From: Ignavibacteria bacterium RIFOXYB12_FULL_35_14
GTDB taxonomy: Bacteria; Bacteroidota; Ignavibacteria; Ignavibacteriales; Ignavibacteriaceae
Assembly: GCA_001803045.1 (NCBI GenBank)
Contig: MHAR01000080.1
Coordinates: forward strand, 1-64,000
Reading direction: 5' to 3'
Length of the DNA: 64,000 bases
The position numbers and the translations under genes are program-made. How positions within the stretch are numbered: the stretch's first letter is position 1; every line of letters starts with the position of its first letter. Below, in pieces: positions 48,361 to 64,000 of this stretch. The notes under the pieces are model-generated. The model was not told the origin of the DNA, did no database searches, and saw nothing but the letters and a program-made list of their open reading frames with translations.

Positions 48361-51300
48361 ATGGAACCCATTACTGAAGATAAAATAGAATATTTGGCGA
48401 TTGAAGAGCTTCAATTACTCGGTTGGGAATATATTCATGGTTTAGCGATTGCTCCCGAAGCAGAAAAAGCAGAGCGCCAGAGTTTTGAGCAAATTATTTT
48501 AACTGAACGACTGCGTAAATCAGTTTCAATCATCAACCCTCACATTCCAAAAGCAGCACAAGAGCAAGCAATTCAAAAAATATTACGTATCTATTCTACC
48601 GATCTTCTTCACAATAATGAAACATTTCACCAGCACTTAGCAGAAAAAGTTAAAATTCCATATCAGCAAGACGGTTACGAGCGAAGCCATGAAGTAGCGC
48701 TTATTGATTTTGAAAATGTTGAGAACAATCAGTTCCTTGCCGTTAATCAGTACACGATAGTTGAGAATAATCCCGCCTTCGGAACGGGCAGGCAGAATAA
48801 ACGTCCGGATATTTTATTATTTGTAAATGGCATTCCATTAGTAGTAATAGAGTTAAAAAATGCCGCAGATGAAAATGCAACAGTTGAAACTGCGTTTAAT
48901 CAGATCCAAACTTACAAATCAACCATACCCAGTTTATTTACTTATGATTCCATCTGTGTTATCTCAGACGGATTAGAATGTAAAGCCGGAAGTGTGTCTG
49001 CGGGATTCAAACGTTATATGGCTTGGAAGACTGTGGAAGGGGAAAAGGAAGCTTCTCGTTTCAAACCACAGCTTGAAACCTTAATTAAGGGGATGTTAAA
49101 TCCTAAAACTCTGCTTGATATTACAAGGAACTTTATCGTCTTCCAAAAAACAAAGAAAGAAGATCCAAAAACCGGTATAACACTAATAAATACCGAGAAG
49201 ATTTTAGCAGCTTATCATCAGTATTATGCTGTAAAAAAAGCAGTACAATCAAGTATTAAAGCATCAAGTATGCAAGGCGATAAACGAGGCGGGGTTGTTT
49301 GGCATACGCAAGGATCGGGTAAAAGTTTAAGCATGGTTTTCTATGCAGCGCTTCTTATTACTGCATCAGAAATGGAAAATCCAACTATTGTTGTAATAAC
49401 AGACCGTAACGATTTGGATGATCAACTGTTTGATACGTTTGCAGCTTCAACACAATTACTAAGACAAGATCCAATTCAAGCAGACAGTCGAGAAGATCTG
49501 AAGAAATTGTTAAAAGTTGCAAGCGGCGGAATTGTTTTTACTACTATTCAGAAATTTCTTCCGGAGTATGGTAAGGAAGAGTACGATCAGCTTTCTGAAA
49601 GAAGGAATATAATTGTAATTGCGGATGAAGCGCATCGCACCCAATATGGCTTTGAAGCTGTAATGAGAGATGTGAAGGACAAAGAAAGCAAGGAAGTGAT
49701 TGGTAAACGCATCGCTTACGGCTTTGCAAAGTATATGCGTGATGCTTTACCAAATGCAACTTATATCGGCTTCACGGGCACACCCATTGAAGGAACGGAT
49801 GTTAATACTCCGCAAGTTTTCGGAAACTACGTAGATATTTATGACATAGCCAAATCTGTTGCTGATGGTTCAACTGTTAAAATATATTATGAGAGCAGAT
49901 TAGCAAAAGTAAATCTTGATGAAGAAGGTAAACGCTTAATCAATGAATTTGACGAGGAGCTTGAGTGGGATGAGGAAATTGACAATAAGCAAAAAGCTAA
50001 AGCAAAATGATCTAAGTTAGAAGCGATTGTAGGTAACAAGCATAGGGTAAAGAATTTAGCGAGAGATATTGCCGATCATTTTGAAAAGAGACAAAAAGTG
50101 TTTGATGGGAAGGCAATGATAATTGCAATGAGCCGGAGAATTGCAGTTGATCTGTTTAATGAGATAGTTGCATTAAAGCAGGAATGGAAAGATGATGATC
50201 TTACTAAAGGAACAATTAAGGTTGTGATGACAGCTTCCAGTGCTGATGGTCCGGTAATGGCAAAGCATCATACAACCAAACAGCAGAGAAGAGATTTAGC
50301 TGATAGAATGAGAGATCCTTCTGATCCATTAAAAATTGTAATTGTAATTGATATGTGGCTTACCGGTTTTGATGTTCCGTGTTTGCACACAATGTACATT
50401 GATAAACCGATGCGTGGTCATAACCTAATGCAAGCAATTGCGAGAGTTAACAGAGTATTCAAGGATAAACCGGGTGGATTGGTTGTTGATTATTTGGGAA
50501 TTGCAACCGACTTAAAGAAAGCATTATCATTTTACTCTGACTCCGGTGGAAAAGGTGATCCTACAGAGGACATTGAACAAGCTATTGAAGTGATGCTTGA
50601 AAAACTTGAAATAGTTCAGCAGATGTTTAATGAGGAAAGTAAAACTCAGAAAGATATTTTAGTTGAAGAACCCGCAGCGTATTACAAAGGCAGTTATAAA
50701 TTTAATTACAATCGCTTTTTTACTGGTACACCACAAGAAAAACTTTCAATCATACTTCAAGCTGAAGAGCATATCTTGGGATTGCAAGACGGTAAGAATC
50801 GTTTCATTAGAGAAGTAACATTATTAAGCCAAGCGTTTGCATTATCAATGCCGCATGAAGAAGCTATGGCGATTAAAGAAGAAGTAGCATTCTTTCAAGC
50901 TGTAAAGGCAAGGTTAATAAAGTTTGATACACCGGGTAAAGGAAAACCATATTCTGAAATTGAAACTGCGATCAAACAGATAGTTGATGAAGCAATTACA
51001 TCAGATAAGGTGATAGATATATTTGAAGCAGCGGGAATAGAAAAACCGGAGCTTTCGATTCTATCGGATGAGTTTCTTTTGGAAGTTCAAGGGATGAATC
51101 ATAAAAATTTAGCAATTGAACTCTTGAAGAAAATACTTAATGATGAAATAAAATCACGATTAAGAACCAATCTAGTTAAAAGCAAAAAGTTTTTAGAAAT
51201 GCTGGAATCAGCAATCAAGAAATATCAGAACAATCTATTAACGACCGCGCAAATAATTGAAGAGCTTATTCGCATTGCCAAGGAAGTCAAGGAATCCGAT

Positions 51301-51609
51301 AAGGAAGGTGAGAAGCTTGGATTGTCAACAGAAGAGGTCGCATTTTATAATGCGCTTGAAACAAATGATAGTGCTGTTAAAGTTTTGGGAGATGAGATAT
51401 TAAAAACTATCGCGAGAGAGATTGCCGATAAGGTAAAAAGGAATGCAACGATTGATTGGACGATTCGGGAAAGCGCAAGAGCAAAGCTGATGGTGCTTGT
51501 TAAACGAACACTCACCAAATACGGTTACCCACCAGATAAGCAGCAGAAAGCAATTGATACGGTCCTAAAGCAAGCAGAGTTGTTTGCTGATAGTTTGGTT
51601 GATCAATAA
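48361..51609 (+). pseudogene. hsdR: Type I restriction-modification system, endonuclease/translocase subunit, interrupted by a TGA
   Basis: A complete HsdR in one frame (1082 codons) except for TGA at 50008-50010 (codon 550). The stop falls in KAKAK-stop-SKLEAIVG, where relatives have KAKWxxLEA, so a Trp codon TGG to TGA change is likely. N-terminal nuclease motifs RPDILLFVNGIPLVVIELK (about 160) precede the helicase part: Walker A WHTQGSGKSLS (about 317), DEAH in VIADEAHRTQ (about 422) and YIGFTGTPIEG. After the stop come DMWLTGFDVPC and QAIARVNRVFKDKPGG. A GTG at 50098 could start the second half alone. Modification genes upstream look intact. The system may modify but not restrict, unless the stop is read through or an error. 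Confidence 0.93.
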
Positions 51610-52058
51610 AAATATTCTCTTATTCTATCTACTTCTAATTTACCCTAGCAAACCAATAAATGCCATACAATTCTACTCATCTCCAAATAAAATTCCGATC
51701 CATCCTCCTGAGAATGAATTGAAACGACCCATAATCCCCGTCTACCGCCACAAAGATTACAGTCTATCCCTTCCTAAGATTTCTAATTACAAATCAGAGA
51801 TAAAAAGAATTCTAACGGACTCTTAGAGCGGAGTTGGTACGGAGCAGGTACGGAGGGAATGTGGAATTTCTATCGCTTTCTTAGCTTACCGCTTGCTTGC
51901 AAGCTTTACTACAATATTTTATAATTAAACAAAACACATTTGGTTTAATTATAACGAAGCTTATCGGCTCAACCTATAATAAGATTTGGCTTATTTTAAG
52001 TAAAAGCGTTAAATTAAAATAAGCCAAAAGTTAATTTTAAGTAAAACATCGAAAAACA
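51610..52058. promoter_or_regulatory. Intergenic region with two palindromes upstream of the Fic gene
   Basis: A 449-bp gap after hsdR. TTATAATTAAAC and GTTTAATTATAA form a perfect 12-bp dyad at 51919-51954. TTTGGCTTATTTTAA (51985-51999) and TTAAAATAAGCCAAA (52014-52028) form a perfect 15-bp dyad ending 30 bp before the Fic ATG, and a further half-site (AATTTTAAGTAAAA) lies at about 52033-52046. A frame across 51584-51826 has no support as a gene. The dyads probably bind the Fic protein's own winged-helix or a partner. Confidence 0.6.
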
Positions 52059-53204
52059 ATGAAAATCGAAGATTTCAAAGCCGGACAGTACCGGCAAGAG
52101 TTCCAACACAAAAGTTTCATCCCAAACATAATAAACATTGAATGGACATGGGTAGATCCCAAAATCAACTCGCTTTTATCCGAAGCCGATCAAAAGGTCG
52201 GGAGCTTGAACGCATTCTCGCTTTACGTACCGGATGTTGATATTTTCATCAGAATGCACATTGTAAAGGAGGCAACGCAATCCAGCCGGATTGAAGGGAC
52301 AAAAACAGAAATTCAAGAAGTGCTGTTAAAAAATGAAGAGTTGTTGCCTGAAAGAAGAGAGGATTGGCGGGAGGTACAGAATTATATCGAAGCGATGAAT
52401 CACTCTATCTCAATGCTTGAAAAGTTACCACTGTCCACACGATTGCTTAAAGAAGCACACAAGATATTAATGCACGGAGTTCGTGGCGAGCATAAAACTC
52501 CTGGAGAATTTAGAAAAAGCCAAAACTGGATTGGTGGCGCGACAATAAATGATGCTGTATTCATTCCACCACCGCATACTGAAGTACCAGGATTGATGAG
52601 TGATTTAGAGAAGTTTTTGCATAACGAAAACTTAAATGTGCCACCTTTGATTAAGGCAGCATTAGCTCACTATCAATTTGAAACCATTCACCCTTTTCTC
52701 GATGGGAATGGGAGAATAGGAAGATTGCTAATAACACTTTTTCTTGTTAGCTCAGGCGTACTGGCAAAACCAACTTTGTATTTATCAGATTACTTTGAGA
52801 AACACCGCAGTCTATATTATGATAATCTTAACAATGTAAGAGCAGCGAATAATCTCACTCAATGGATTAAATTCTTTATAGTAGCCGTAATCGAAACAAG
52901 TAAGAGAGGTATTCAAACATTTAATCATATTCTAAAGCTCAAAGAAGAAGTTGAAAATGAAAAGATAATATCGTTAGGTAAAAAGTTGCCCAAAGCTAAA
53001 AAGCTTATGAATTACCTGTACGCAAATCCTTTAGTCTCATCAGGCGATATAACAAAAAAACTAAATGTAACTCCTGCTACTGCAAATGCGTTAATTGAGG
53101 ATTTTGTGAAGCTCGGAATTCTTACAGAAATAACCGGCGGGAAAAGATATCGCACTTACTCTTTCCATAAATATTTAAATCTCTTTACAGATAAAAAATC
53201 TTAG
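52059..53204 (+). CDS. Fic family protein (AMP-transferase type) with C-terminal winged helix
   Basis: A 381-residue protein that probably transfers AMP to target proteins. The Fic motif HPFLDGNGRIGR lies at about 210-221. An N-terminal inhibitory-type motif S-x-x-x-E-G occurs at Ser75-Gly80 (SSRIEG), the class II arrangement in which a Glu blocks ATP binding. The last about 70 residues form a winged helix (VSSGDITKKLNVTPATANALIEDFVKLGILTE), which suggests DNA binding and possible autoregulation through the palindromes just upstream. It is downstream of the restriction island but on its own promoter. Targets unknown; toxin-like activity cannot be judged. Confidence 0.92.
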   Translation: MKIEDFKAGQYRQEFQHKSFIPNIINIEWTWVDPKINSLLSEADQKVGSLNAFSLYVPDVDIFIRMHIVKEATQSSRIEGTKTEIQEVLLKNEELLPERREDWREVQNYIEAMNHSISMLEKLPLSTRLLKEAHKILMHGVRGEHKTPGEFRKSQNWIGGATINDAVFIPPPHTEVPGLMSDLEKFLHNENLNVPPLIKAALAHYQFETIHPFLDGNGRIGRLLITLFLVSSGVLAKPTLYLSDYFEKHRSLYYDNLNNVRAANNLTQWIKFFIVAVIETSKRGIQTFNHILKLKEEVENEKIISLGKKLPKAKKLMNYLYANPLVSSGDITKKLNVTPATANALIEDFVKLGILTEITGGKRYRTYSFHKYLNLFTDKKS

Positions 53205-53381
53205 GGATTTAAAGAGTTGGAATCCTACCATTCATGAGAAAATAACATTTGTGTCTTCTTATTTATGAAAAAAGATAAGACTTGCCAATTGAAAAATGTT
53301 CATGAATCAACACTAAATGAATATTTTCGCTCGGCATATATCTTGTAAAAATTTTGCAAAATAATTTGTTAAGATAAACAT

Positions 53382-53408
53382 TACTCTTATTTTTGAGTAG
53401 CTTTTTTT
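53382..53408 (+). terminator. Weak hairpin with T-run upstream of nuoA
   Basis: TACTC (53382-53386) and GAGTA (53395-53399) with seven T at 53402-53408. The stem is only 5 bp, so it is a weak terminator or an attenuator-like leader at most, 47 bp before the nuoA start. No other signals are clear in 53205-53454. Confidence 0.25.
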
Positions 53409-53454
53409 CAAATCTTAATTGTTGTCATCATTTTCGCCATAGTCATTCTTTTTA

Positions 53455-53895
53455 ATGCTAACTGAATTCGGCAAAATATTCGTCTTCATCCTGATTGCAA
53501 TCCTTTTTGTTGTTGTTGCATTAATTGCCGCAAAAATAATTCGACCAGCCCGCCCAACTCACGAAAAACTTCTTACTTATGAATGCGGTGAAAATCCTGA
53601 AGGCAGTCCTTGGGTAAAGTTTAACATTAGATTTTACGTTGTTGCGCTAATCTTTTTAATATTCGATGTTGAAGTTGTATTGCTTATTCCTTGGGCATTG
53701 GTTTACCAGGATTATGGATTTACCGGATTTGCAGTTGGAGCAATCTTTTTACTTTTGCTTGGTTTAGGAATGGCTTACGAATGGAGAAAAGGCGATCTCG
53801 AATGGGATCGTCCTCATCCTATTCCCCCTGTTCTTAAGAAAAGTGAAACAGACAGCAATCTTAAAATTCCTAAAGAAGAAATTGAAGTAGTATAA
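53455..53895 (+). CDS. nuoA: NADH-quinone oxidoreductase subunit A
   Basis: A small membrane subunit of complex I (146 residues) with three hydrophobic segments. The family motif [32 protein letters not shown] is nearly complete around residues 43-74. A charged C-terminal tail extends beyond the usual length. It opens the operon; nuoB starts 5 bp later. Confidence 0.96.
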
Positions 53896-53900
53896 AATTT

Positions 53901-54392
53901 ATGGGATTACTTGACAAACAATTCGCGGACGATAACATTGTAATTACGACTGTTGACGATCTTTTTAATTGGGCTAGATTATCATCTCTCTGGCAAGTTG
54001 GTTTTGGGCTCGCATGCTGTGCTATTGAAATGATGGCAACTTCAGCATCACATTATGATTTTGACAGATTCGGTGTTATTCCTCGTCCATCGCCAAGACA
54101 ATCTGATGTTATCATTGTTTCAGGAACAGTGACATTGAAAATGGCTTTGCGAGTTAAACGGCTTTACGAACAAATGCCCGATCCAAAATATGTAATCTCG
54201 ATGGGAAGCTGTTCAAACTGCGGAGGACCTTACTGGGAACATGGTTATCACGTTTTAAAAGGAGTTGACAGAGTGGTTCCCGTCGATGTTTATGTGCCGG
54301 GTTGTCCCCCCCGTCCCGAAGCTCTTCTCGAGGGATTGATGAAGCTTCAAGAAAAAATTAGAAATGAATCTTTGGTTAAAAAAACTGCATGA
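53901..54392 (+). CDS. nuoB: NADH-quinone oxidoreductase subunit B
   Basis: Carries the terminal N2 cluster of complex I next to the quinone site. [12 protein letters not shown] (tandem Cys), [14 protein letters not shown] and [12 protein letters not shown] supply the ligands. 163 residues. It overlaps nuoC by 4 bp (ATGA), coupling the two. Confidence 0.97.
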
Positions 54393-54919
54393 AATCACCG
54401 GAAGAAATATTCAAAATATTAAAAGATAAATTTGGTGAATCAATCATTGAATTGAAGAGCGGTGTTCCCGTTGAATCATATATCGTCGTCGATCCTATGA
54501 AGATTGATGAAGTTTGTTTATTCCTTAAAGATGAACCGGAATTAAAATTCGATAACTGCATGAACTTATCCGGTGTTGATGATGCGAATGGAAAAAAGGA
54601 AGCTCAAACAGATGGAAGTTCGGTTATCATTGGAGGTACTTTAAGTGTTGTCTATCATCTTGAATCCGTTTACCTAAAACACAAGTTAACTCTTAAAGTT
54701 GCTGCACCGAGAGAGAATCCGCAAGTAAAATCGGTCGCAAATATTTGGCGCTCTGCTGATTGGAATGAACGTGAAGCATACGATTTGTATGGAATAAATT
54801 TTATGAATCATCCCGATCTTAGACGAATTTTAATGCCGTACGATTGGGAAGCAGGTTATCCGTTAAGAAAAGATTATAAGAATCCTGAGTTTTACCAGGG
54901 AATGAAAGTACCGTATTAA
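54389..54919 (+). CDS. nuoC: NADH-quinone oxidoreductase subunit C
   Basis: The peripheral-arm subunit of 30 kDa type (176 residues). The signature [26 protein letters not shown] is present near 118-148, with the end [12 protein letters not shown]. It is separate from nuoD, which lies 616 bp downstream after an inserted four-helix-bundle gene, whereas nuoC and nuoD are normally adjacent or fused. Confidence 0.96.
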
Positions 54920-54924
54920 GGAAA

Positions 54925-55508
54925 TAACAAATCACAAAAAATAATATCCAAACAATACTCAATATTAAAAAATCAATACTCAAACATTTAGTTCAATGAA
55001 TAAAGTATAAGACAATATCAATGAGCAAAGAACAAAATTCGAATAAATATGATTTGGAGGAGAGAACTTTTCAATTTGCGAAAAGCGTATGCCTTTATAC
55101 TAAAACATTAAAAAGAACTGACTCAAATATTGAGTACTCAAGACAAGTAATTAAGTCATCAAGCTCAACTGGAGCAAATTATATTGAAGCAAATGAAGCA
55201 CTCAGCAAAAAAGATTTTAAAATGAGAATAAAAATTTCGAGAAAAGAAGCTAAGGAAGCTGCTTACTTTCTAAGATTGATTGTTGAAACCAATGAAGAAG
55301 AATATCAAGAAAAAGGATTGGAATTAATGATTGAAGCAGTTGAATTAAAGAAAATTTTTTCTGCCATCTTGCTAAAATCCGAATGACTTTAAAAATTGAT
55401 TATTTGAAATAAAAATTCATCTGTTTTTTATGCTTTGAATTTTTGATCATTGTTTTAGGATTGTTTGGGATTTTTAACTTGATTTTTGAAAATTATTTGT
55501 GATTTGTG
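54925..55508. mobile_element. IVS-like insertion between nuoC and nuoD
   Basis: A 585-bp AT-rich unit holding the four-helix-bundle gene. Its ends carry imperfect inverted matches: AACAAATCACAAA at about 54926-54938 against TTTGTGATTTGT at 55497-55508, and TCCAAACAATAC at about 54947-54958 against ATTGTTTGGGA at 55460-55470. This resembles the intervening sequences found in 23S rRNA genes, here placed in a protein operon. Boundaries are approximate. Confidence 0.45.
55021..55386 (+). CDS. Four-helix bundle protein (23S rRNA IVS-encoded type)
   Basis: A 121-residue helical protein, KSVCLYTKTLKR and SRQVIKSSSSTGANYIEANEALSKKDFKMRIKIS being the typical family blocks, with EAKEAAYFLRLI near the end. 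The family is best known from intervening sequences of 23S rRNA genes, and its members form pentamers of four-helix bundles of unknown function. Here it sits between nuoC and nuoD in the same direction and has no role in complex I that I know. The flanks show imperfect inverted repeats, so it came in as an element. Confidence 0.9.
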   Translation: MSKEQNSNKYDLEERTFQFAKSVCLYTKTLKRTDSNIEYSRQVIKSSSSTGANYIEANEALSKKDFKMRIKISRKEAKEAAYFLRLIVETNEEEYQEKGLELMIEAVELKKIFSAILLKSE

Positions 55509-55535
55509 TTTTGATTTTTAGAATTTAATTATAGA

Positions 55536-56687
55536 ATGTTAACAGAAACCCATAAAAATATAACCTATACGCCCGTTGTTAAAACCGAGGAAATGATCCT
55601 CAACATGGGTCCTCAGCATCCATCAACACATGGTGTGCTGCGATTGGAGCTTCAGCTTGAAGGTGAAATAATCACAAAGGTGATTCCTCACATCGGTTAT
55701 CTTCATCGCTGTTTTGAGAAACATTGCGAAGCAATGACTTATCCTCAAGTAATTCCTTACACTGATCGAATGGATTACCTTGCTTCAATGGGAAATGAAT
55801 TGGGGTATGTGGTTGCTGTTGAAAGATTACTCAACATTCAGGTTCCAGAAAGAGTTGAATACATTCGTGTAATCATGGCTGAACTTCAGAGAATTGCTTC
55901 TCACTTAGTTGCGCTTGGTACTTATGGCGCAGATATTGGTGCTATGACACCCTTCCTGTTTTGCTTTAGGGACCGCGAAATGATTTTAAGCTTGTTTGAA
56001 ATGACATGCGGTGCCCGGCTTTTATACAATTACATTTGGGTTGGCGGACTATCGCATGATCTTCATCCAGATTTTGTAAGACAAACGCGCGACTTTTGCA
56101 ATTACTTCAAACCAAAGATAAAAGAGTTGAACGATCTTCTTACCTACAATAAAATTTTTATTGATCGTACTGCACATGTTGGAATATTACCGCTTGATAC
56201 TGCAATAAACTTTGGAATTTCAGGCCCGATGCTCAGAGGATCAGGAATGAAATGGGATTTGAGGAAAGATGATCCTTATTCAGTTTATCATAAATTTGAT
56301 TTTGATATTCCGGTTGGAGAAGGTAAAGTTGGAACTGTAGGCGATTGCTGGGATAGATATTATGTACGTGTTCTCGAAATGGTTGAAAGCTTAAAAATTA
56401 TTGAACAGGCACTCGATCAGCTTCCTGAAGGTGATGTCATGTCTGCAATTCCCAAAAGAATTAAGCCACCAGTTGGACAAATTTACACACGTATTGAAAA
56501 TCCTCGCGGAGAACTTGGTTACTTTATTATAAGTGACGGAAGTGTAAATCCGTTTAGAGTTAAAGCTCGCGCTCCTTCGTTTGTAAATTTAGGTGTGATG
56601 GATGTTCTCTGTCGGGGTCACATGGTTGCTGATATAATTGCAATTCTTGGCAGTGTTGATATTGTACTTGGCGAGGTTGACAGATGA
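55536..56687 (+). CDS. nuoD: NADH-quinone oxidoreductase subunit D
   Basis: The 49-kDa-type subunit that forms the quinone pocket with nuo[22 protein letters not shown] near the start and [14 protein letters not shown] are family markers, and the C-terminus has [13 protein letters not shown]. The length of 383 is normal. Overlaps nuoH by 4 bp (ATGA). nuoE, nuoF and nuoG, which lie between nuoD and nuoH in many bacteria, are absent at this place. Confidence 0.97.
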
Positions 56688-57754
56688 TGTACGATTTTTT
56701 TGTTGATCTATTCGGAAATGAGATTATAGCCGCAATTCTTAGTGGTGTTCCCCCACTTCTATTTATTTTAGTGTTTGTTCTGTTTGCTGTTTGGCTTGAA
56801 CGAAAAGTTTCTGCTCACATGCAAGACCGATTAGGCCCGATGCGAACAGGCTGGCACGGTTATCTTCAAACTATTGCTGATCTCATAAAGCTGATCCAGA
56901 AGGAAGATATTTTAGCAGCGGCAAATGATAAACCTTTATTTAATTTAGCGCCTGTTTTGGTTTTTGCTGGAACTTATGCTGCTTTTGCTGCAATTCCATT
57001 TTCAAGTTATTACATCGGTTCCAACATTGACCTTGGAATATTTTTTATTATTGGGATTTCGGGTTTGGTTGTTGCCGGAATATTGATGGCAGGCTGGTCA
57101 TCAAATAATAAATACTCAATGCTCGGTGCAATGAGAGCCGCTGCACAAATTATTAGTTATGAAATTCCTACGATTCTTGTCGTGTTGACTGTCGTAATGA
57201 TCACCCGAACATTAAACTTGCACACTCTAAGTGAAATGCAAACCGGCTACATTTGGAATTGGATGATATTTGGTGGACCAACAGTCGGCTGGCAAAAGTT
57301 TTCACTCATTCCTCTAATGTTCATTGGATTTCTCGTAATCTACATGAGCACACTTGCCGAAGTAAACCGTACACCATTCGACATTCCCGAAGCAGAATCA
57401 GAATTAGTCTCGGGTTACCACACAGAGTATTCAGGGATGAAGTTCGCTATGTTTTTTCTTGCTGAGTATGCAAACATGTATGCTGTTTCAGCGATTGTTA
57501 CAGCTTTGTTTCTCGGAGGGTATCAATCCCCCATTGGATATTTCGGAAATCTAGTCGATGTTCCTTGGCTAATTCCAATCGAACAATTTCTGTGGTTTAC
57601 AATTAAAGGTACTTTCTTTGTATTTGTTCAAATGTGGCTTCGTTGGACTCTACCGAGATTACGAGTTGATCAGCTAATGGCTTTGTGCTGGAAATATTTA
57701 ATTCCCATCGCTTTTGTAAATCTTATAATAGTTGGACTAATTACCGTTTTGTAA
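56684..57754 (+). CDS. nuoH: NADH-quinone oxidoreductase subunit H
   Basis: Membrane subunit at the junction with the peripheral arm; 356 residues and about eight hydrophobic segments. [20 protein letters not shown] is at the N-terminal side, and [26 protein letters not shown] is the diagnostic loop. ATGATG at the start leaves two possible Met codons. The next ATG, 1 bp after the stop, belongs to a truncated nuoI copy. Confidence 0.97.
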
Positions 57755-57755
57755 G

Positions 57756-57925
57756 ATGAAAGAATACTTTTCAAATATCTGGATCGGATTGTCAACGGTG
57801 GCAATTGGCATGAAGGTAACTTTTAAACATTTGTTCGTTCCAGCAGTAACAATTCAATATCCAAGTGTTCGAGTTGAATTACCTGAAAGAGAAAGAAACC
57901 GGCTTTATGTGAATATGGATGATTG
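57756..57925 (+). repeat. Direct repeat of nuoI 5' end, left copy
   Basis: Positions 57756-57925 match 59315-59484 with one mismatch (C at 57772, T at 59331). The repeat starts exactly at the ATG in both copies and the two are 1559 bp apart. The high identity says the duplication is recent. Confidence 0.93.
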
Positions 57926-57956
57926 TATTGGACATGATCAATGTTGGTGTGCATGA
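57756..57956 (+). pseudogene. Truncated 5' copy of nuoI
   Basis: The first 57 codons repeat those of the intact nuoI at 59315 with one base difference in 170 bp, up to the first cysteine motif, where the sequence diverges (GHDQC instead of GCDQC) and stops at a TGA. It has no complete Fe-S motif. A T9SS domain fragment in another frame begins at 57943, so the gene copy was joined to foreign sequence there. Confidence 0.92.
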
Positions 57957-58038
57957 ACTGAAATTTGATGGATACAGTCAGTCAAGTGGAATTTATTTCT
58001 ATCGCTTGGTTTCCGTTGATAATAAAATTCTTAGTTAA
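57943..58038 (+). pseudogene. C-terminal fragment of a T9SS sorting domain
   Basis: In the frame from 57943 the sequence reads VGVHELKFDGYSQSSGIYFYRL and ends at a TAA at 58036-58038. The pattern of FDG...SSGIYFYRL is that of type A sorting domains. The rest of the parent gene is missing; the fragment is fused to the truncated nuoI copy. Confidence 0.75.
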
Positions 58039-58061
58039 AAAATTATTTTGTTACGATAACA

Positions 58062-59318
58062 ATGAACAGAAAAATTAATAAAATAGCAGTTCTCTTTTTT
58101 ATTATTGTAGTTACTGTTCCTGATTTTTCTCAAACTGTAGCACAAGAAAAAATATTTTTTGCGGCAAGGCGAGACAGTAATTCCATTTATCCATTGCTCT
58201 ATATGATGAACGTTGACGGCAGTAATATTCACGCGATAAAGGATTCTATTATAGGTTACGTTCCTCGGCTTTCACGGGATGGTAAAAGGATTGCTTACAT
58301 TGGAACCTATAGCGACCAAATAATCGGACCCCCGCAGGTGAGAGTAATGAATGTTGACGGAACAAATAATCACGTTGTTTCTTTGTGCAAACATCCGATT
58401 ACTGGACAAATCAGCCCTTGCGAGGATAGTTTTAGTCCTGCTTGGTCAGCGGATGGAGAAAAGATAGCGTATGATCGGTGCAATAATTGCGAGGCCGGAG
58501 GGGATAATTTTGATATATACATTGTCAATACTGATACTACTCAAGGGTATGTTCAAGCAAAAGTAACTCAAAGTTTGTACAGTGAGCGTCTGTATGATTG
58601 GTCGCCTGATGGGAGCAAATTACTGTTTAGGGCTCATTATTTTAATAATACGTACGATTTTGATGGGGAATTATTCTTAATGAATACTGATGGAACAAAC
58701 TGGAAACAACTCACAAATGGTATTGGTACAATTGGTCCTCGCTACTCGCCGGATGGAGCCACAATAGCTTTTTTCTCAAACCATGAAAATAAACAACTCG
58801 AAATATATTTGATGGATACAACTGGTGTTAATATCCGAAGATTGACAAACTTAAATTTGGAGCCAAAATATGCGACTCTTTCTTGGTCACCAGATGGCAA
58901 AAAGATAGTTTTTGAGTCTGATTTTAAAATTTTCGTTTTAGATGTTCTGTCCCTTGCTGTAATTCAAATACCCACTAATATGCGAGAGAGCGAAACCCCG
59001 GAATGGGGAAACATGGTGGTAACCAACGTGACAACTTCAAATTATCAGAATGTGAATAAATATTTTTTGTATCAGAATTATCCCAATCCATTTAATCCTG
59101 AAACTCAGCTTAAATACTCACTTAAGGAAGATGCATTAGTAACATTAAGACTGTTTGACATTCTTGGTAATGAAATTGTAACTTTAATTCATGAACCAAA
59201 AAGTCAAGGTAGTCACACTTTGGATTTTAACGCTGGTAATCTTTCAAGCGGGGTTTATATTTATCAGATTAAAGCAAATAATTTTATTGCTTCGAAGAAA
59301 ATGATAATCACAAAATGA
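58062..59318 (+). CDS. Secreted PD40 beta-propeller protein with T9SS sorting domain
   Basis: A 418-residue exported protein inserted in the complex I operon. Signal peptide about 1-28. Blades of the PD40/WD40-like type follow (MMNVDGSNIHAIKD, FSPAWSADGEKIAY, YDWSPDGSKLLF, RYSPDGATIAFFS, SWSPDGKKIVFES), then a linker and a type A sorting domain at about 335-418 (YQNYPNPFNPETQL, SSGVYIYQI and a KKMIITK end). Its stop codon overlaps the nuoI start (ATGA). The contents are unrelated to respiration, and the ORF lies between a broken and an intact copy of nuoI, so it is an inserted segment. Similar propellers occur at 25570-26628 but without this domain. Confidence 0.88.
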   Translation: MNRKINKIAVLFFIIVVTVPDFSQTVAQEKIFFAARRDSNSIYPLLYMMNVDGSNIHAIKDSIIGYVPRLSRDGKRIAYIGTYSDQIIGPPQVRVMNVDGTNNHVVSLCKHPITGQISPCEDSFSPAWSADGEKIAYDRCNNCEAGGDNFDIYIVNTDTTQGYVQAKVTQSLYSERLYDWSPDGSKLLFRAHYFNNTYDFDGELFLMNTDGTNWKQLTNGIGTIGPRYSPDGATIAFFSNHENKQLEIYLMDTTGVNIRRLTNLNLEPKYATLSWSPDGKKIVFESDFKIFVLDVLSLAVIQIPTNMRESETPEWGNMVVTNVTTSNYQNVNKYFLYQNYPNPFNPETQLKYSLKEDALVTLRLFDILGNEIVTLIHEPKSQGSHTLDFNAGNLSSGVYIYQIKANNFIASKKMIITK

Positions 59319-59938
59319 AAGAATACTTTTTAAATATCTGGATCGGATTGTCAACGGTGGCAATTGGCATGAAGGTAACTTTTAAACATTTGTTCGTTCC
59401 AGCAGTAACAATTCAATATCCAAGTGTTCGAGTTGAATTACCTGAAAGAGAAAGAAACCGGCTTTATGTGAATATGGATGATTGCATCGGATGCGATCAG
59501 TGTTCTAGGGCTTGTCCGGTTAGCTGCATTGAAATTGAAACCGTAAAAGGACTTCCAACAGAAGACTTGGGTAAAACTTCAAATGGAAAGAAAAAAGCTT
59601 TATGGGTCACTAAGTTCGATATTGATTTTGCAAAATGCTGCTACTGCCAGCTTTGTGTTTTTCCATGTCCAACAGAATGTATTTACATGACAGACGTTTA
59701 TGAGTTCTCTGAATTCCAGCGCAATGATTTGGTTTATGATTTCGTAACTCTCACTCCGGAAGAACGTGAACAGAAAAAACTTAATTACCAAAAATTTGAA
59801 GTTGAAAAAGCTGCCGAGAAAGCAGCAAAGAAACCGGTGACTCCGCCAGCAACACCAGAAGCTAAACCAGAGGTGAAAGTTAAAACAGAAACGCCTCCGC
59901 CAGGTGCTGATAATCCAGGAGAAAATAAGGTAAGCTAA
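59315..59938 (+). CDS. nuoI: NADH-quinone oxidoreductase subunit I
   Basis: The two-[4Fe-4S] ferredoxin subunit (TYKY type) carrying electrons within complex I. CIGCDQCSRACPVSC (from about 57) and CCYCQLCVFPCPTEC (from about 109) supply eight Cys. The C-terminal 50 residues are an Ala/Pro/Lys-rich tail not found in shorter homologues. It is the intact copy; the ATG overlaps the stop of the inserted propeller gene by 4 bp (ATGA). nuoJ begins 2 bp after its stop. Confidence 0.96.
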   Translation: MKEYFLNIWIGLSTVAIGMKVTFKHLFVPAVTIQYPSVRVELPERERNRLYVNMDDCIGCDQCSRACPVSCIEIETVKGLPTEDLGKTSNGKKKALWVTKFDIDFAKCCYCQLCVFPCPTECIYMTDVYEFSEFQRNDLVYDFVTLTPEEREQKKLNYQKFEVEKAAEKAAKKPVTPPATPEAKPEVKVKTETPPPGADNPGENKVS

Positions 59939-59940
59939 CT

Positions 59941-60429
59941 ATGACACTTTACGATATAATATTTTACCTTTTTGCACTTGTTACAATTTCTTCGGCATAC
60001 TTGGTTGTAACCGTTCGGAATATTGTTTACTCTGCTTTCTCTTTGCTCTTTACACTATTTGGAATTGCCGGACTTTATGCTTTGCTGGGAGCTGACTTTG
60101 TTGCGATTGTTCAACTAATAGTATACGTCGGCGGCATCTTAATTCTGATGATCTTCGGTGTAATGTTAACGAACAAAATCACAAATGTTCAAATCAAAAC
60201 AGGAGTATTCCAAATCCTGCCTGCCACAATTGGTGTTGGAATATTTGGTGGATTTTTACTCGCTGTACTATTAAACACAAACTGGCTGAATCTCAATGTT
60301 AAAGATTCCCCGGCAACCACTTTTCAATTGGGACAGCTTTTAATGAATGAGTGGGTATTACCGTTTGAATTGCTGGGAATCGTATTGTTAATTGCACTTC
60401 TTGGTGCAGCATCAATTGCGAGGAAATAG
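59941..60429 (+). CDS. nuoJ: NADH-quinone oxidoreductase subunit J
   Basis: A five-helix membrane subunit of 162 residues. VRNIVYSAFSLLFTLFGIAGLYALLGADFVAIVQLIVYVGGILILMIF is the family block. It lies directly between nuoI and nuoK. Confidence 0.95.
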   Translation: MTLYDIIFYLFALVTISSAYLVVTVRNIVYSAFSLLFTLFGIAGLYALLGADFVAIVQLIVYVGGILILMIFGVMLTNKITNVQIKTGVFQILPATIGVGIFGGFLLAVLLNTNWLNLNVKDSPATTFQLGQLLMNEWVLPFELLGIVLLIALLGAASIARK

Positions 60430-60441
60430 GAAATTTATTTT

Positions 60442-60753
60442 ATGGTAACCGTAAGTTTATATCATTATTTATTTGTCAGCACAATTCTTTTCTCCTTAGG
60501 AATTTTTGGAATTGTAACCAGGAAAAATGCAGTGATGGTTCTAATGGGAATAGAATTAATTCTCAATGCTGCAAACATTAATTTTGTTGCTTTTGCACGA
60601 TATGGAAATTTTGGATTTCAAGGTCAGCTGATGGCTTTGTTTGTAATAGTGCTTGCTGCTGCAGAAGCAGCAATCGCACTTGCGATCGTTCTCAATATAT
60701 ATAAAGTTTTTTCATCTGTTAATGTTGATGAAATAGACCGGCTTAAAGAATAA
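60442..60753 (+). CDS. nuoK: NADH-quinone oxidoreductase subunit K
   Basis: A three-helix membrane subunit of 103 residues, the Mrp-like proton channel part. LMGIELILNAANINFVAFAR, with the essential Glu in the second helix, and VLAAAEAAIALAIVLNIYK are diagnostic. Normal length. A repeat element (60773-60841) separates it from nuoL. Confidence 0.96.
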   Translation: MVTVSLYHYLFVSTILFSLGIFGIVTRKNAVMVLMGIELILNAANINFVAFARYGNFGFQGQLMALFVIVLAAAEAAIALAIVLNIYKVFSSVNVDEIDRLKE

Positions 60754-60772
60754 ATTTTATATAAACGAACAT

Positions 60773-60841
60773 GTCACCCCGAACTTGTTTCGGGGTCTCA
60801 TCAGAATGCAGATTGGGATGCTGAAACAAGTTCAGCATGAC
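60773..60841. repeat. Interspersed inverted repeat, family A (copy 2)
   Basis: Starts GTCACCCCGAACTTGTTTC (60773-60791) and ends with the near inverse of copy 1's left arm, GCTGAAACAAGTTCAGCATGAC. The same element as 7569-7638. It lies inside the nuo operon between nuoK and nuoL, where it could act as a stem-loop that tunes expression of the downstream genes. Confidence 0.8.
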
Positions 60842-60922
60842 GGCAAAATTTTCAGTACAGACGATAAATCGTGGGGTTAGAGCATGTTCAGAAAAAATAA
60901 TTTCGTAAAATAAATTTTAATA

Positions 60923-63010
60923 ATGGATTTAATCACTTTATCAGTAATAATCTTATTCATTCCCCTATTAGGATTCGTTCTAACTCTCTTTACCGGAATG
61001 AATTTCAAATGGGCATTCTTAATCGAGAATGTTTTGATTGTTTTAGGATTTATCCTTTCCGTTGTTCTACTTTATAATAAGTTATCAGGTTACTTAGATA
61101 CAGATATTGTATCAGAATTTAATTGGATAAATCTGGGAATTATTCCCTTCTTTGGTGAAATAATTATTAAGCTCGGAATTAAGCTCGATAACGTTGCTGT
61201 GATCATGAACTTCACAGTATTTCTAATCAGTATGGTTGTGCATCTGTTCTCGATTGATTACATGAAAGGCGACAAAAGATACAGCAGATACTTTGCTTAC
61301 TTAGGACTATTCACTTTCTCAATGACCGGAATAGTTGTAACCAACAATGTCTTAATGATGTATATTTTCTGGGAGTTGGTTGGATTATCATCTTATCTTT
61401 TAATTGGTTTTTGGTTTGAGAAAAAGTCCGCCTCCGATGCAGGAAAAAAAGCATTCATCGTTAATCGTATTGGTGACTTAGGAATGTTTGCTGGAATATT
61501 AATACTTTTTGTTACATATAAAACTTTTTCTTTCCAGGAAATTTTTAATGCCGTTGCTGCCGGGCAATTACCTTTTAATAGCGAGTTTTGGTTAACAATT
61601 ACCGGTTTACTTTTATTCTGCGGAGCAATTGGAAAATCTGCACAATTCCCTCTTCATGTTTGGCTGCCGGATGCAATGGAAGGTCCAACTCCTGTTAGCG
61701 CTTTGATTCATGCAGCTACAATGGTTGCCGCGGGCGTTTATTTCATCGTGAGAATTTTCCCTATTCTTTCGGGAGATGCTTTACTTATCATAGCTATAAT
61801 TGGTGCAATTTCGGCATTCATTCCAGCAACAATTGCATTAACTCAGAACGATATTAAAAGAGTTTTAGCTTACTCCACTGTAAGTCAGCTTGGTTACATG
61901 ATAATGGCTTTGGGAATTGGCGCTTATGTCTTTGCATTCTTCCATCTGATTACTCATGCATTTTTCAAAGCATGCTTATTTCTTGGTTCAGGTTCGGTCA
62001 TACACTCGATGCATCATGAGCAGGATATTCAAAAAATGGGTGGGTTAAGAAAGAAAATGCCAATTACTTATGCAACATTTTTACTAGCTACACTTGCGTT
62101 GTCTGGTATTCCATTAACATCAGGTTTCTTAAGTAAAGATGGAATTTTAGCAGGCACTTTAGCATACACATCACTTACCGGGAATTGGTTTTTTACTTTT
62201 ATTGGATTTACTGTCGCTATGCTAACCGCATTCTATATGTTTAGATTAGTAATTCTAACTTTTCATGGTGAACCGAAAAACAAAGAGAAGTACGATCATG
62301 CTCATGAATCTCCTTTCTTTATGATTATGCCCTTGGTTCTTCTTTCCGGCCTATCAATTTTTATTTGGTACACACCAAATCCGTTTAATGCCGATTCAGG
62401 TTGGGTATTATCCAAATGGGTTAAAGCACCAACACTTTCAGTTCCTGAGTCAGCCCGTTATCCTTTTATGGTTGAAGAACAGAAACAAGAAAGTATAGTA
62501 AAGCAGGAAGAAGAAGTAACATTCTCACACGAATATACTCACGCAATGCACTCTGCACATGTTCCGACAATATTCTTATCCGGTTTTGTAGCAGGTTTAG
62601 GAATTTTATTCGCCTTTTTGTTTTATCAATGGAAAAAACTTGATCCCAATAAATTAGCAGCAAAGGTTAAACCACTCTATAATTTATCATACAACAAATG
62701 GTACTTCGATGAATTCTACAATTCTGTTTTTGTTGGAGGAACTCTTGCATTCAGTAATTTTTTGAGATGGATTGATAACACAATCATCGATGGAATTGTT
62801 AATGGATCAGCAACGCTCACCAGAGGAGTTTCAAAGGTAAGCGGAAAATTTGATAACGGTGTTGTTGATGGTCTCGTTAATTTCACAGCTTATTTCAGCG
62901 GTTTTATTGGTCTTTTATTTAGAAAATTTCAAACAGGAAAAGTTCAAACGTACATTGTGCTCGTGATCTTTTCGTTATTGATACTATTATTTTTATTTAA
63001 GTCATTCTAG
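60923..63010 (+). CDS. nuoL: NADH-quinone oxidoreductase subunit L
   Basis: The large antiporter-like proton pumping subunit; 695 residues with about 15 hydrophobic segments. WELVGLSSYLLIGFWFEK, FIVNRIGDLGMF, VWLPDAMEGPTPVSALIHAATMVAAGVY and STVSQLGYMIMALG are the family blocks, and the lateral amphipathic helix region is present in the C-terminal half. Separated from nuoK by the family A repeat. Confidence 0.96.
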   Translation: MDLITLSVIILFIPLLGFVLTLFTGMNFKWAFLIENVLIVLGFILSVVLLYNKLSGYLDTDIVSEFNWINLGIIPFFGEIIIKLGIKLDNVAVIMNFTVFLISMVVHLFSIDYMKGDKRYSRYFAYLGLFTFSMTGIVVTNNVLMMYIFWELVGLSSYLLIGFWFEKKSASDAGKKAFIVNRIGDLGMFAGILILFVTYKTFSFQEIFNAVAAGQLPFNSEFWLTITGLLLFCGAIGKSAQFPLHVWLPDAMEGPTPVSALIHAATMVAAGVYFIVRIFPILSGDALLIIAIIGAISAFIPATIALTQNDIKRVLAYSTVSQLGYMIMALGIGAYVFAFFHLITHAFFKACLFLGSGSVIHSMHHEQDIQKMGGLRKKMPITYATFLLATLALSGIPLTSGFLSKDGILAGTLAYTSLTGNWFFTFIGFTVAMLTAFYMFRLVILTFHGEPKNKEKYDHAHESPFFMIMPLVLLSGLSIFIWYTPNPFNADSGWVLSKWVKAPTLSVPESARYPFMVEEQKQESIVKQEEEVTFSHEYTHAMHSAHVPTIFLSGFVAGLGILFAFLFYQWKKLDPNKLAAKVKPLYNLSYNKWYFDEFYNSVFVGGTLAFSNFLRWIDNTIIDGIVNGSATLTRGVSKVSGKFDNGVVDGLVNFTAYFSGFIGLLFRKFQTGKVQTYIVLVIFSLLILLFLFKSF

Positions 63011-63018
63011 GTAGTAAA

Positions 63019-64000
63019 ATGGCAAGCTTTCCAATTCTTTCATGGATAACACTTCTTCCAATTTTGGGGATGGTGATAATCTTATTCATTCCTAAAAACC
63101 AGGAAAAGATTATTAAAGGTTTAACTCTGCTCATAACAAGCATTCAAGTTATTCTCGCGATTGTTATTCTTGCAGGTTTTAATTACGCCAAAGGCGGAGT
63201 GTTCGATGCAAGTTCATTTCAATTCATAGAAAAATTCAGATGGATTGATATTGAAGGATTTTCCTGGATTGGAAGAGTTAAGATTGATTATTACTTGGGA
63301 ATTGACGGATTGAGTGTTCCTTTAGTTCTCTTAACTGCGATCATTTGTTTTATTTCAACGCTTTCATCATTCAGCATAAACAAATCCGTTAAAGGATATT
63401 TTGCAATGTTCCTTCTACTCGATACCGGAATGATGGGAGTTTTTGTTTCATTAGATTTCTTCCTCTTCTACATTTTCTGGGAATTGATGCTTCTCCCGAT
63501 GTACTTTTTAATTGGTATTTGGGGAGGCCCTCGCAAAGAATATGCAGCTATAAAATTCTTCCTTTACACTTTGTTGGGAAGCGTATTCATTCTCCTAGCA
63601 GTGATCGGATTATACTTTAGTACTACCGAAACTTTAGCTGATGGAAGCAAAGTATTTACATTTAACATGATTGCGATGATGGATCCTGCCAACTATTCTG
63701 CTGATGGAATACTATCCCCATTCAATCCAGACAATTTACGGTTCATTGCCTTCCTCGGTTTGTTCATTGGATTCGCAATTAAAATTCCGATGTTCCCCTT
63801 CCACACATGGTTGCCCGATGCACATGTTGAAGCACCTACTGCAATAAGCGTTATTCTTGCCGGTGTTTTGCTGAAGATGGGAACTTACGGAATTTTGCGA
63901 GTCAACTATACAATGTTTCCCGAAATCACAAAACAACTAATTTGGTACATCGCCTTGTTCGGCATGATAAATATTATTTATGGTGCGCTAACTGCAATGG
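63019..64000 (+). CDS. nuoM: NADH-quinone oxidoreductase subunit M (partial, runs off the window)
   Basis: Open from the ATG at 63019 to the last base of the window (about 327 codons). MASFPILSWITLLPILG opens the protein, then DYYLGIDGLSVPLVLLT, YIFWELMLLPMYFLIGIWGG and FPFHTWLPDAHVEAPTAISVILAGVLLKMGTYG are the classic NuoM blocks. The 3' end, and presumably nuoN, lie beyond the window. Confidence 0.96.
   Translation, partial: MASFPILSWITLLPILGMVIILFIPKNQEKIIKGLTLLITSIQVILAIVILAGFNYAKGGVFDASSFQFIEKFRWIDIEGFSWIGRVKIDYYLGIDGLSVPLVLLTAIICFISTLSSFSINKSVKGYFAMFLLLDTGMMGVFVSLDFFLFYIFWELMLLPMYFLIGIWGGPRKEYAAIKFFLYTLLGSVFILLAVIGLYFSTTETLADGSKVFTFNMIAMMDPANYSADGILSPFNPDNLRFIAFLGLFIGFAIKIPMFPFHTWLPDAHVEAPTAISVILAGVLLKMGTYGILRVNYTMFPEITKQLIWYIALFGMINIIYGALTAM

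Follow-up and report, generated by a model that had tools for sequence, protein, structure and literature searches.

How does the gene for a secreted surface protein come to lie within the operon for complex I, between a broken and an intact copy of nuoI? The question is raised by a stretch of 64,000 nucleotides from an Ignavibacteriaceae genome (G000), here called the window. A sequence-only reading of this DNA had pointed out that the 5′ end of nuoI occurs twice, with the tail of one T9SS protein gene and a complete T9SS propeller gene between the copies, and had suggested either integration by homologous recombination or a duplication-insertion. We have followed these suggestions through the window, its relatives and a sample of other T9SS gene neighbourhoods.

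The repeated nuoI start and the genes between its copies

nuoH (56684–57754, + strand) is complete, and is followed after a single base by a first copy of nuoI nucleotides 1–170 (57756–57925, + strand). The second copy (59315–59484, + strand), found by repeat comparison, opens the intact gene, and the two are identical at 169 of 170 positions, exactly as had been counted from the letters. The repeat begins at the ATG, with the preceding base unlike between the copies (G versus A), and the copies diverge beyond nucleotide 170; an ungapped search returned the match as 193 nt at 96%. The sole mismatch, at nuoI nucleotide 17 (C on the left, T on the right), exchanges Ser for Leu at codon 6. Two relatives, L033 and L034, share the left-copy base, and the position is variable among relatives. 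A 170-bp repeat with one mismatch cannot have arisen by chance; its near identity fits either recency or gene conversion. The search of positions 50000–64000 reported no further direct repeat of 30 bp or more.

The left copy is a truncated remnant in the ancestral position, and its TAA-G-ATG spacing from nuoH is the arrangement seen in the nearest relative, L033. It is read for 66 codons and then meets a TGA, so that the cysteine clusters are missing, as against the 207 aa and two 4Fe-4S motifs of the intact nuoI on the right (59315–59938, + strand; ORF and domain search). Beyond the intact gene the operon continues with nuoJ (59941–60429, + strand). The description of the two copies as broken and intact was therefore correct.

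The first of the two genes between the copies, which we call gene A, is represented by a decayed T9SS-type tail (57933–58059, + strand). It is read in a frame differing from that of nuoI and carries the motif DMINVGVHELKFDGYSQSSGIYFYRLVSVDNKILS, in which an in-frame TAA (58036–58038) occupies the position where the motif expects lysine; KIILLR and the natural stop (58057–58059) follow. The tail was recognized by this motif and by a T9SS gene in another genome (G001) that it matches over 61 bp at 84%; taken alone it fell below Pfam detection. Gene B (58062–59318, + strand; ORF and domain search) begins two bases after the natural stop of gene A, and the two therefore look like a pair that was taken together. 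It encodes a 418-aa PD40 (TolB-like) propeller with a T9SS sorting tail (PD40 repeats, 1.5e-18; Por_Secre_tail, 1.4e-11). A hydrophobic stretch is visible by eye at its N-terminus and, together with the C-terminal sorting domain, gives it the features of T9SS cargo; we predict that the product is secreted. The same genome encodes a SprA_N protein (3.4e-46) and has 116 Por_Secre_tail matches at E ≤ 1e-6, while the single-contig genome G002, considered below, has at least 150. Both elements of the insert are thus of the kind that had been proposed.

In the left junction zone (57926–57957, + strand), the nuoI and gene A sides match in register at 18 of 30 positions (57928–57957), a similarity with a probability of about 2e-4 when compared with random 30-mer pairs from the window. 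This is consistent with joining within a patch of chance similarity, and part of the zone may still be nuoI. At the right junction, the gene B stop overlaps the intact nuoI start in ATGA (59315–59318, + strand), an overlap that had been noticed in the earlier reading. Translational coupling of nuoI to gene B is possible; ATGA overlaps are ordinary in this complex I operon, occurring also at nuoB/nuoC and nuoD/nuoH. Gene B has a third-position GC of 0.30, similar to the 0.31–0.34 of the nuo genes. No terminator-like site was found on the operon strand within the insert, so the operon is predicted to be readable throughout, in line with the suggestion that it had been left transcribable, and gene B would be co-expressed with complex I.

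Empty sites among relatives

In the nearest named relative, Ignavibacteriaceae bacterium L.E.IG.6 (L033), nuoH is followed directly by nuoI with the same TAA-G-ATG spacing, and the two genes are also adjacent in G001 and in nearly all other loci examined. Of 164 genomes examined in the order, 143 gave a match to the nuoI start. Two copies on one contig occurred in G000 alone; in two further genomes the second copy was on a different contig. The nuoH–nuoI distance, compared by eye from coordinates, exceeded 1 kb only in G000 and G029, which carry unrelated inserts, and was about 370 bp in G104. In about 140 other genomes of the order nuoI stands straight after nuoH. The empty site that comparison with related genomes had been expected to reveal is therefore present, and the arrangement is far from common to all relatives, since a gene of more than 1 kb stands at the joint in two of about 140. 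Because the genes are adjacent in relatives and the duplication in cis is confined to G000, we conclude that the window arrangement is a derived insertion.

No donor copy of the insert was found, as DNA or protein, in its own genome or in 40 relatives, in which only the sorting-domain part matches. Viral, phage and plasmid sets likewise held no close relative of gene B, and returned distant propellers only. The inserted DNA is therefore probably foreign, unless its source has been lost. The sample covers two species of the genus, with one genome per species.

T9SS blocks in other nuo operons and at other gene ends

A T9SS gene is present in all four kilobase-scale blocks that we saw inside nuo operons. 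One of these, at a locus that is like G029 in arrangement and spacing (L047; JAGUYG010000026.1), consists of an unrelated 560-aa T9SS gene at the nuoH/nuoI joint; this L047/G029 insert has ATGA overlaps with nuoH before it and with nuoI after it, and no duplication. The one-contig genome G002 contributes two more: between nuoD and nuoH it has genes for a 244-aa protein and a T9SS protein of 1198 aa, and between nuoI and nuoJ it has genes for a beta-barrel and a T9SS protein of 887 aa. Both of these sites are empty in G030, G082 and G084, which belong to the same genus as G002. On either side of the 4.4-kb nuoD/nuoH insert stands a direct copy of the end of nuoD with the start of nuoH, GATATTGTTTTAGGAGAAAT-GACAGATGATGTACGA; the two copies align over 76 bp at 80% (about 75 bp), and the inserted 244-aa gene consequently opens with the first nuoH codons. 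When the G029 insert and the second of the G002 nuo inserts were searched for pieces of nuo genes, only short words matched.

Sampling of T9SS neighbourhoods, 20 from G000 and 40 from G002, yielded two more duplication-flanked insertions, both in G002. At the start of an aminotransferase gene (L184), a 93-bp repeat at 100% identity, comprising 69 bp of upstream sequence and the first 8 codons, encloses 7.06 kb with T9SS genes. The truncated aminotransferase copy keeps the ancestral distance from lysC, and G082 and G084 have a plain lysC–aminotransferase neighbourhood with a single copy, the empty site. G082 has a relative of the block, 74–77% identical, on other contigs, with one piece next to pyrG; the block has thus moved. 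Inspection by eye places the left joint at a short word (AATTCC-like) that the aminotransferase codons have in common with the leader of related blocks. The second insertion, at the end of pckA (L223), has a 117-bp repeat at 95% that includes the pckA end and its terminator, with 8.04 kb containing a T9SS gene in between; in G084 the pckA end abuts the sequence that is found after the right copy in G002, again an empty site.

As a control we used 103 nuo neighbourhoods (1.18 Mb), in which three direct repeats reached the grade of 40 bp and 80%, and none of the three was a gene-end duplication; since this control is unmatched in gene content, it gives a background impression rather than a rate. 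The remaining direct repeats from the T9SS neighbourhoods were set aside, being mostly sorting-domain paralogs, tandem copies, IS copies and intergenic repeats. The recurrence comprises few cases, of which three of the four with duplications come from G002, and the nuo cases came from a nuo-centred search.

When the duplicated segments of all four cases (170, 93, 117 and about 75 bp) were compared, they shared no att-like core above shuffle level. Comparisons of the inserts for terminal inverted repeats and for common ends likewise stayed at shuffle level, and no integrase or transposase was recognized among the proteins of the inserts. Together these results argue against site-specific recombination and transposition, and an insertion sequence or transposon was rejected for want of both a transposase and terminal inverted repeats.

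Two observations concern the aminotransferase locus itself. About 170 bp of the G002 block (L184 5926–6097) has four more genomic occurrences at 98–99% identity, and may be a small non-autonomous element; a T9SS gene appears to be split by it. In G083, the aminotransferase that bears the insertion in G002 is immediately preceded by a T9SS gene of 811 aa (L220 2–2437).

Origin of the insertion

We believe that the window arrangement is probably a recent derived insertion with a long target duplication, and one case of a process that recurs in the family, a recurrence that the earlier reading had missed. A piece of DNA that did not belong to the present genome, and in which the last part of one T9SS gene was followed by an entire T9SS propeller gene, would have been joined illegitimately within nuoI. 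The first 170 bp of nuoI would thereby have been duplicated, leaving a truncated copy behind nuoH and the whole nuoI after the insert. For the joining step, the likeliest candidates are template switching guided by microhomology and end-joining with repair synthesis. An intact nuoI would presumably have been needed for survival, and with gene B ending on the nuoI ATGA both frames would be readable. Across the family, blocks with T9SS or outer-membrane protein genes would repeatedly have entered housekeeping genes at their ends and duplicated some 75–170 bp. The fit between the gene B stop and the nuoI start is too precise for random joining, and calls for selection, for microhomology in the ATGA, or for an older fusion of gene B to nuoI in a donor. 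Of the two modes of integration suggested originally, a duplication-insertion into nuoH/nuoI therefore stands, whereas plain homologous recombination is unsupported because no donor copy was found and the left junction joins unlike sequences of weak similarity.

The older fusion would suit a different joining step, in which a circularized donor fragment (gene A–gene B–nuoI, its ends joined by microhomology between nuoI nucleotide 170 and the gene A tail) entered nuoI by a single crossover, making the intact start the donor allele. Such a route yields the observed product exactly and accommodates the one-base difference between the two nuoI starts. It has a precedent in E. coli, where duplications of 109–950 bp were assigned to single-crossover integration of recircularized, partly degraded linear DNA (PMC3240628). 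The exact ATGA fit keeps it alive, as does G029, which shows a T9SS gene linked to nuoI through ATGA within the family. However, it requires a donor with gene B already before nuoI, which none of 143 genomes provided, and the same donor assumption has to be repeated for each G002 case. One-step illegitimate insertion needs no such donor and is preferred on that account; the crossover is a real possibility that we judge somewhat improbable on balance. Perhaps no special process is required at all: if illegitimate insertions are random, only those that restore the gene would survive beside essential genes, and duplications would be seen for that reason. This would account for the variable duplication length and for the location at gene ends, and T9SS genes are abundant in these genomes, as the sorting-domain counts above indicate. 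That all four nuo-operon blocks include a T9SS gene, when such genes make up an estimated few per cent of all genes, speaks against it, and we would give it a little less than an even chance. The likelihoods that we attach to these two explanations overlap with that of our preferred one, because the crossover differs from it only in the joining step and random insertion only in whether T9SS genes are favoured.

Two further explanations appear very unlikely. Phage-like islands at tRNA or icd genes usually betray themselves by a duplicated gene end with restored function, and integration by a site-specific recombinase would leave just such a trace here; but no integrase was recognized in the inserts, and the duplicated units are unlike in both sequence and length, with no core, which makes this the least probable of the explanations considered. 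Barely more credible is a strain chimera or an artefact of assembly. The window genome was assembled into 95 contigs and the repeat is of short-read scale, yet one base distinguishes the two nuoI copies, the insert sits well within an 88.5-kb contig (C80), both novel junctions would need real reads, and the same architecture occurs in the single contig of G002.

Insertion with long target duplication has been described for restriction–modification genes in Helicobacter pylori (Nobusato et al., 2000, as cited in PMC1643837 and PMC3154945), and the target duplications have been reviewed as long and variable, in the order of 100 bp (PMC3874152). The T9SS insertions resemble these in that the block is present or absent between relatives, the direct target duplications are of that order and variable in length (170 bp in the window; 93, 117 and about 75 bp in G002), and there is no known mobile element. 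The corresponding empty sites are in L033 for nuoI, G082 and G084 for the aminotransferase, G084 for pckA, and G030, G082 and G084 for nuoD/nuoH. They differ in their cargo of T9SS or outer-membrane protein genes and in their host, a member of the Ignavibacteria; the restriction–modification cargo absent here is the usual association of such insertions and not part of the mechanism. A further difference is that three of the four cases duplicate a gene start and that, in the window, the frames are fused by ATGA. A limited literature search found no report of long-target-duplication insertion for T9SS genes. Homology-facilitated illegitimate recombination, in Streptococcus, Acinetobacter and Pseudomonas stutzeri, is similar in combining one homologous with one illegitimate junction and in capturing foreign DNA. 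It typically deletes about as much as it inserts, whereas here the target is duplicated and there is no resident deletion at the illegitimate junction. The displacement arrays of Vibrio cholerae T6SS effector–immunity genes (PMC5361080) also involve inserted genes for exported proteins and truncated or displaced relics of resident genes, but are anchored on conserved upstream regions at T6SS loci rather than at genes of respiration or metabolism.

Insertions with long target duplications have so far been tied mainly to restriction–modification genes, and polarized cases with surface cargo, from a little-studied phylum, would suggest a general swapping of surface genes free of mobile elements. 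More tentatively, and as a proposal we consider rather unlikely, the T9SS genes of the Ignavibacteriaceae may travel as integrase-less blocks that prefer the ends of housekeeping genes, duplicate about 100 bp and borrow start or stop codons, promoters or operon transcription, a restriction–modification-like mobility route for the cell surface. A 170-bp repeat at a spacing of 1.56 kb is expected to recombine back to the exact ancestral operon. Without selection the inserted state should therefore be transient, and such looping out would make its gain, loss and cost directly measurable.

Several other genes were observed in or beside the nuo operons. Between nuoC and nuoD the window has a 23S_rRNA_IVP four-helix-bundle gene (55021–55386), flanked by short imperfect inverted repeats; a 92% identical gene occupies the same joint in L047, and at least 10 other genomes have diverse four-helix-bundle (S23-like) genes in this gap, which is a shared hot spot for them. 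Directly upstream of nuoA lies a gene for a Fic-domain protein (52059–53204; Fic_N and a winged-helix end), and just upstream of the operon is a probable HsdR-like type I restriction subunit, recognized by eye (48361–51609), with one in-frame TAG at about 50008. In another genome (L139 2537–3185), a small GIY-YIG-like gene is found between nuoI and nuoJ.
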